Below are positions 21,655 through 22,106 of a DNA stretch of 40,084 nucleotides, piece by piece; within the stretch, counting starts at the first letter, position 1, and each line of letters opens with the position of its first letter. This DNA comes from Gammaproteobacteria bacterium. GTDB lineage: Bacteria; Pseudomonadota; Gammaproteobacteria; Magnimaribacterales; AG-339-G14. The notes below the pieces were generated by a model that had not been told where the DNA came from, ran no database searches, and was given only the letters and a program-made list of their open reading frames with translations. The position numbers were made by a program, and so were the translations under genes. The DNA lies in the NCBI GenBank assembly GCA_004213955.1, contig SGZL01000009.1, positions 1 through 40,084 of the forward strand. Direction: 5' to 3'.

Positions 21655-21731
21655 TGGGGTGGACGATGGGACTTGAACCCACGACAACCGGTACCACAAA
21701 CCAGCGCTCTACCAACTGAGCTACGCCCACC
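21655..21731 (-). tRNA. tRNA-His (GTG)
   Basis: Cloverleaf with acceptor GTGGGCG / CGTCCAC, an extra G at -1 (21731) opposite a C at position 73, which is the tRNA-His identity feature, anticodon loop TTGTGGT and T-loop TTCAAGT. CCA is encoded (21657-21655). Confidence 0.97.
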
Positions 21732-21737
21732 ATATCA

Positions 21738-21814
21738 TGGCCTCCCGGGCAGGATTCGAACCTGCGACCCTCTGCTTAGAAGGCAGATGCTCTATCCAGC
21801 TGAGCTACCGAGAG
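21738..21814 (-). tRNA. tRNA-Arg (TCT)
   Basis: Acceptor CTCTCGG / CCGGGAG, anticodon stem TCTGC / GCAGA with loop CTTCTAA, T-arm GCAGG / CCTGC, discriminator G and encoded CCA. It lies 6 bp from tRNA-His in the same transcript. Confidence 0.97.
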
Positions 21815-21871
21815 AATTATTGCTTATTCTATATAAAAGGTTTTGATTAGTCTTGTATGAGTTAGTTCAAG

Positions 21872-21955
21872 GCTCCCGGTCAGGAGTTGAACCTGTAACT
21901 TATTATATTGCTTCCATGCAGTTAAATAAGAATTCTACCGTTTAGAAACCGGGAG
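21872..21955 (-). ncRNA. tRNA-like element without a normal anticodon arm
   Basis: Read on the minus strand it has a perfect 7-bp acceptor-like stem CTCCCGG / CCGGGAG, and a D-arm-like hairpin TTCT-AAACGGT-AGAA. It also has a T-arm with exact consensus GGTTCAACTCC in a 4-bp stem (CAGG / CCTG). Between them is a 32-nt arm closed by CTTATT / AATAAG instead of a 5-bp stem with a 7-nt loop; no anticodon can be assigned. No CCA is encoded (CCTT follows), unlike the neighbouring tRNAs. The 3' half closely resembles tRNA-Arg(TCT) next door. It is either a degenerate duplicate or a tRNA-derived structured RNA. Confidence 0.5.
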
Positions 21956-22029
21956 TTCTTATCTTCTCTTCCCTGAGAACCATATTGATGTCTCTTTATA
22001 AATCTAACACAAATAAATATCTAATCAAA

Positions 22030-22106
22030 TGGTCGGGGTGGAGGGATTTGAACCCCCGACATCCTGCTCCCAAAGCAGGCGCGCTACCAGACTGCGCTAC
22101 ACCCCG
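22030..22106 (-). tRNA. tRNA-Pro (TGG)
   Basis: Acceptor CGGGGTG / CACCCCG, anticodon stem CCTGC / GCAGG with loop TTTGGGA, T-arm CGGGG-TTCAAAT-CCCTC-type, discriminator A and encoded CCA. First gene of the tRNA cluster, divergent from folD. Confidence 0.97.

Follow-up and report, generated by a model that had tools for sequence, protein, structure and literature searches.

A conserved tRNA-like element lacking an anticodon arm between tRNA-Pro and tRNA-Arg in two SAR86 genera

In mascRNA and menRNA, a crystal study found a smaller D arm, a longer stem replacing the anticodon stem and the lack of eight linker residues (PMC11693755). mascRNA is recognised by RNase P and RNase Z through its elbow and is not aminoacylated (PMC11693755, PMC4919922). 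The t-elements of plant mitochondria are tRNA homologues that RNase P and RNase Z cleave; they receive a CCA tail and are not charged (PMC11658184). Among bacteria, the Y RNA YrlA (RF02553) is a non-coding RNA with a tRNA-like domain (PMC7790460).

We compared with these RNAs an element from a SAR86 genome, found in a window of 40,084 nucleotides (the whole stretch of DNA analysed). It lies on the minus strand at 21873–21955 (83 nt), where the first-pass annotation had noticed something cloverleaf-like, and it is a cloverleaf of the t-element or mascRNA type, with an acceptor and a T arm and without a decoding arm. Upstream of tig-clpP-clpX-lon, the minus-strand order is tRNA-Pro(TGG) (22030–22106), element, tRNA-Arg(TCT) (21738–21814) and tRNA-His(GTG) (21655–21730), the three tRNAs as called by ARAGORN. 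Spacers of 74 nt and 58 nt separate the element from tRNA-Pro and tRNA-Arg, respectively.

The order along the element is CTCCCGGT-TTCTA-AACGG-TAGAA-TT-CTTATT-(20 nt)-AATAAG-TTA-CAGG-TTCAACT-CCTG-ACCGGGAG. Its ends, CTCCCGGT (21948–21955), with U8 paired, and ACCGGGAG (21873–21880), form an acceptor helix whose pairing is as perfect as had been claimed, over 8 bp, one more than the 7 bp first counted. The D arm (21933–21947) pairs TTCTA with TAGAA around a 5-nt loop, AACGG, that keeps GG. In place of the anticodon arm, folding and dissection give a 6-bp hairpin (21899–21930) in which CTTATT and AATAAG close a 20-nt loop; TGC/GCA pairing is possible inside this loop. In the T arm (21881–21895) CAGG and CCTG close TTCAACT, fitting the consensus GTTCRANYC, and the stem has 4 bp only because an A-A stands where a fifth pair is normally counted. 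After the acceptor helix come a flanking base and then CTT, so that CCA is not encoded, unlike in tRNA-Pro, tRNA-Arg and tRNA-His. The D-arm-like hairpin, the exact T-arm consensus, the middle hairpin and the missing CCA had all been described in the first-pass annotation and were confirmed. ViennaRNA folds the element at −25.2 kcal/mol (z = −3.6), and none of 200 shuffled sequences is equally stable. ARAGORN makes no call for this copy and the Rfam tRNA model (RF00005) finds no match to it at E ≤ 10.

The element is preceded by a purine-rich leader (21956–21977, minus strand) that is conserved at 87–95% within each close pair of copies, against 67–86% for the spacer further upstream. A GTTCT/AGAAC hairpin noticed earlier just 5′ of the element does occur in the window, but the closest relative (L003) has lost the 5′ arm of this hairpin, which is therefore not among the conserved features of the locus. 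Scans of the copies identified neither promoter nor terminator for the element, and nothing conserved of either kind; in the spacers of L004 and L005, TATAAT can be read a few bases before the leader. A block CAAGACTAATC..CTTTTATATAGAATA before tRNA-Arg (21825–21855, minus strand), missed by the consensus scan, is conserved in all relatives, with or without the element, and is probably the promoter of tRNA-Arg.

Relatives were found by a search with the tRNA cluster, and the spacers between tRNA-Pro and tRNA-Arg were then aligned. Of 12 assessable genomes, 9 have the element in this slot, and they belong to two sister SAR86 genera: G000, G004, G005 and G006 in genus g1, and G009, G012, G015, G021 and G024 in genus g4. 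G001, G002 and G018 were left out as not assessable because their assemblies hold no recognisable tig copy. The nine copies are that of the window (L002) and L003–L008, L014 and L031; in G003, G027 and G030 the locus is present and the element absent. In a Tig tree g1 and g4 are sister genera, whose Tig proteins share 61–65% identity; one gain and two losses of the element would fit. No relative has a normal tRNA in the slot, and the homologous elements found there carry no stem-breaking changes in the acceptor, D or T helices.

A covariance model built from the same nine sequences scores them at 66–82 bits (68.1 bits for the window copy), while ordinary tRNAs reach at most 50 bits. It detected no further copy in 203 genomes of the order, and a class-wide search of a 369-genome sample returned nothing beyond the known genus. 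Pattern scans of IMG/VR with both versions of the element gave no match, and a literature search did not find SAR86 and tRNA-like together. In genera g2 and g3 the slot is filled by a protein gene, which, judged by reading translations, is short-chain dehydrogenase-like (L012, L018) or thioesterase-like (L022, L025, L030); the slot of L011 holds a small unknown ORF with repeats. With contents that differ between genera, the slot resembles a hot spot for insertions. The gap between tRNA-Pro and tRNA-Arg is about 8 nt in members of families f3 and f4.

Copy-by-copy dissection gave an acceptor helix of 8 bp, a D stem of 5 bp and a T stem of 4 bp in all nine copies, with no non-standard pairs. No copy breaks any of these 17 pairs, so that 100% of the alignment cells in the three helices are paired. 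In a stems-only alignment, which is a manual dissection by the author and leans towards the assumed structure, 7 of the 17 pairs (4 of them in the D arm) have changed on both sides, a number reached in none of 500 shuffles; with partner columns slid by 1–3, only 0–1 pairs show such changes. This alignment was used instead of the automatic one (5 pairs changed on both sides, 90.6% pairing) because MAFFT put the D arm out of register and so understated the covariation. The surroundings behave differently from the helices. Between L002 and L003 the flanking spacer is 72% identical, compared with 100% in the acceptor; between L002 and L004 the spacer is at chance (44%, against 46% for shuffles) and the acceptor 88% identical, its two differences amounting to one compensated pair.

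Every copy has the 12-bp stack of acceptor and T arm (8+4) expected of a tRNA. GG is found in the D loop of all nine and T54-T55-Y-R-A58 in eight, with C56 replaced by U in two of those eight. The T loop of L014 (CAGGATG) is without the motif, and its T stem is kept via G-U pairs; this is the weakest copy and may be on its way to loss or to a change of function. The nine copies also share traits that tRNAs do not have: position 8 is paired, within the acceptor helix, and position 9 is paired with 26. Only 1–5 linker bases are left per copy, against the usual eight in tRNA. The middle arm is a 6–8-bp hairpin with a loop of about 18–20 nt in g1, containing an ordered inner mini-hairpin with the loop AUGGAA, AUGGAU or AAGGAA, and in most g4 copies a 3-bp stub with a loop of mostly 4 nt; no anticodon is common to the copies.

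Scoring of 5′ and 3′ parts against tRNAs bears out the earlier suggestions that the element is tRNA-derived and that its 3′ half resembles tRNA-Arg(TCT). This downstream neighbour is the top-scoring tRNA for five of the six copies compared, the exception being L004, which scores slightly higher with tRNA-Arg(CCT). Element and tRNA-Arg(TCT) have the acceptor start CTCYCGG and the T-arm sequence in common; the element differs in having no anticodon arm, no CCA and derived pairing at 8, 9 and 26. At the position of a U4-G69 wobble in the neighbouring tRNA-Arg of g1, the element has C-G (L002 and L003) or U-A (the other copies). CTCTCGG has persisted in the g4 element although tRNA-Arg there has become CTCCTGG, so that the resemblance does not stem from gene conversion, which we reject in this genus.

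Since the decoding arm has been lost and the rest of the fold kept by paired mutations, this conserved non-decoding tRNA-like RNA is, on comparative evidence, probably functional and not a dead gene. The kept stack and elbow, together with the likeness to mascRNA, menRNA and t-elements, lead us to prefer a processing element and to place a tRNA-mimicking small RNA second. To the proposal that a tandem duplicate of tRNA-Arg(TCT) turned into a tRNA-like element cut by RNase P and the 3′ tRNA-processing enzymes we assign a probability of roughly 0.45. The duplication would have occurred in the common ancestor of the two sister SAR86 genera, and the duplicate would have become non-decoding by losing the features read by the ribosome and ArgRS. 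It would have been kept for the tRNA-processing enzymes, with its 12-bp acceptor/T stack and, in eight of nine copies, a D-loop GG and T-loop motif able to form the elbow. Enzymes that work through stack and elbow (RNase P, 3′ processing, CCA addition) should still be able to read such an RNA, whereas it should be of no use in decoding. Transcription would come from tRNA-Pro or a promoter of the element's own, and the element would be cut at its 5′ end by RNase P and at its 3′ end by tRNA 3′-processing enzymes. These cuts would divide tRNA-Pro from the tRNA-Arg-His-tig transcript and free a short, stable RNA, as for mascRNA and t-elements. The comparison establishes position, ancestry and a conserved, covarying structure, while transcription, processing and cleavage itself as the function are inferred. 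Several features count against the processing reading, namely the failure of the scans to find a promoter or terminator for the element, the lack of an encoded CCA, the varying bases that follow the element (ACC, TCC, CCT or CCA), the loss of the T-loop motif in L014 and the minimum free energy folds, which depart from the cloverleaf in several copies when the leader is included. A processing signal also seems unnecessary because relatives without the element (L009, with a 56-nt spacer, and g2 and g3) keep the same tRNAs.

A less probable alternative is a free, trans-acting tRNA mimic. Once released, such a small RNA would bind one of the proteins that handle tRNA, such as EF-Tu, RNase P, a modification enzyme or a tRNA nuclease, or would pair with other RNAs via the variable middle arm and the purine-rich leader. 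The kept elbow and acceptor would suit it, as would the conservation of the leader within subgroups and the ordered mini-hairpin in the middle arm of g1. However, the middle arm is wholly different between the genera and their leaders cannot be aligned, so that no common target-binding part is seen.

That the element is a decaying, functionless duplicate of tRNA-Arg, its tRNA look a leftover of ancestry, we consider doubtful. It has neither anticodon nor CCA, it has been lost in three genomes of the two genera (L009 is among such loci), and L014 looks degraded in its T loop, all as decay would have it. Yet nine copies spread across Tig identities of 61–65% keep every acceptor, D and T pair intact, seven of these pairs being compensated, in genomes of roughly 1.1–1.2 Mb whose nearby spacer is saturated, and conversion by tRNA-Arg is excluded in g4 as a source of the likeness. 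The stem-breaking changes expected of a pseudogene were not found, which largely refutes decay. Compensated homologues strongly support the first-pass argument that retained pairing speaks against simple decay. Together with the absence of a normal tRNA from the slot in relatives they disfavour a recently dead duplicate, one of the three options first left open beside a regulatory RNA and a processing spacer.

Slightly less probable still is a cis-acting switch, in which the leader would compete with the tRNA-like fold by pairing with the 5′ strand of the acceptor, and so control read-through into tRNA-Arg-His-tig. Leader:acceptor hairpins of 5–8 bp can be drawn in L004–L008, L014 and L031, and that of L005 (1614–1645) is terminator-like, being followed by CGGTGTTTTA. 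This tail is not conserved, a scan having found no counterpart in the window or in L007, and the hairpin is weak in the window copy. Because the pairing in most copies is no better than with shuffled leaders (21 to 353 of 500 as good), we make no claim for a switch.

That the element works as an unusual tRNA is very improbable. ARAGORN does report tRNA-Arg(acg) for L005, and L004 (37.8 bits) and L005 (39.8 bits) exceed the Rfam tRNA cut-off, but they are the only copies to pass the RF00005 gathering threshold. Positions 8, 9 and 26 are paired, the middle stems (3, 6 or 8 bp) and their loops (4–20 nt) never combine into the 5-bp stem and 7-nt loop of an anticodon arm, and the same genome has a nearly complete normal tRNA set including a proper tRNA-Arg(ACG).

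With one class II tRNA (636815–636896) left out of the anticodon tally, G005 appears to lack no tRNA other than a CCG reader. A pattern search allowing at most 2 mismatches found no tRNA-Arg(CCG) in G000, G003–G007, G009, G011 or G015. Since it is missing from genomes with and without the element, its absence is not linked to the element, and we reject the idea that the element rescues a missing tRNA. CGG is used a single time among the 3194 codons of seven window genes and may be close to unassigned. The element is annotated by ARAGORN as tRNA-Arg(acg) at L005 1630–1712 and as tRNA-??? at L004 1718–1800. In public genomes, copies of this type may carry a mistaken tRNA annotation, and annotators should be cautious, as some copies also lie above the Rfam tRNA cut-off.

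Two bacterial RNAs offer only a partial comparison. tmRNA (RF00023) likewise has a tRNA-like domain without an anticodon arm, but the SAR86 element is too small for a tag reading frame; RF00023 does not match it, and the real tmRNA gene lies elsewhere (G000:C1:21079–21429). In the YrlA model the T arm precedes the D arm and the RNA is encoded with a Ro protein, whereas the element keeps the normal tRNA order. A search of five genomes found no Ro/TROVE protein, and sub-threshold RF02553 matches fall on tRNA-Arg and tRNA-His only.

The closer parallels lie outside bacteria. Like the element, mascRNA and menRNA keep the acceptor and T arm with a small D arm, no real anticodon and few junction linkers. 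They are, however, the 3′ ends of human long non-coding RNAs (MALAT1 and MEN-beta) with no common ancestry, whereas the element is bacterial, derives from a neighbouring tRNA, lies within a tRNA cluster and would be processed only by prediction. Plant t-elements are likewise homologous to tRNAs, do not encode CCA, are altered in the anticodon region and adjoin other genes, but they are organellar and define the ends of mRNAs and rRNAs. The likeness to both may indicate how the element works; it does not imply membership by descent. If the analogy is true, this is a clear case of a tRNA gene that lost decoding and was kept for its shape alone in a highly streamlined genome, and convergence on the linker-less junction of mascRNA makes recognition of tRNA shape testable with bacterial RNase P. 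At slightly better than even odds, we regard the element as an anticodon-less tRNA-like RNA with a four-way junction of the mascRNA type, evolved from the bacterium's own tRNA gene and kept across genera as a processing signal or a tRNA-mimicking small RNA, convergent with mascRNA and the t-elements.
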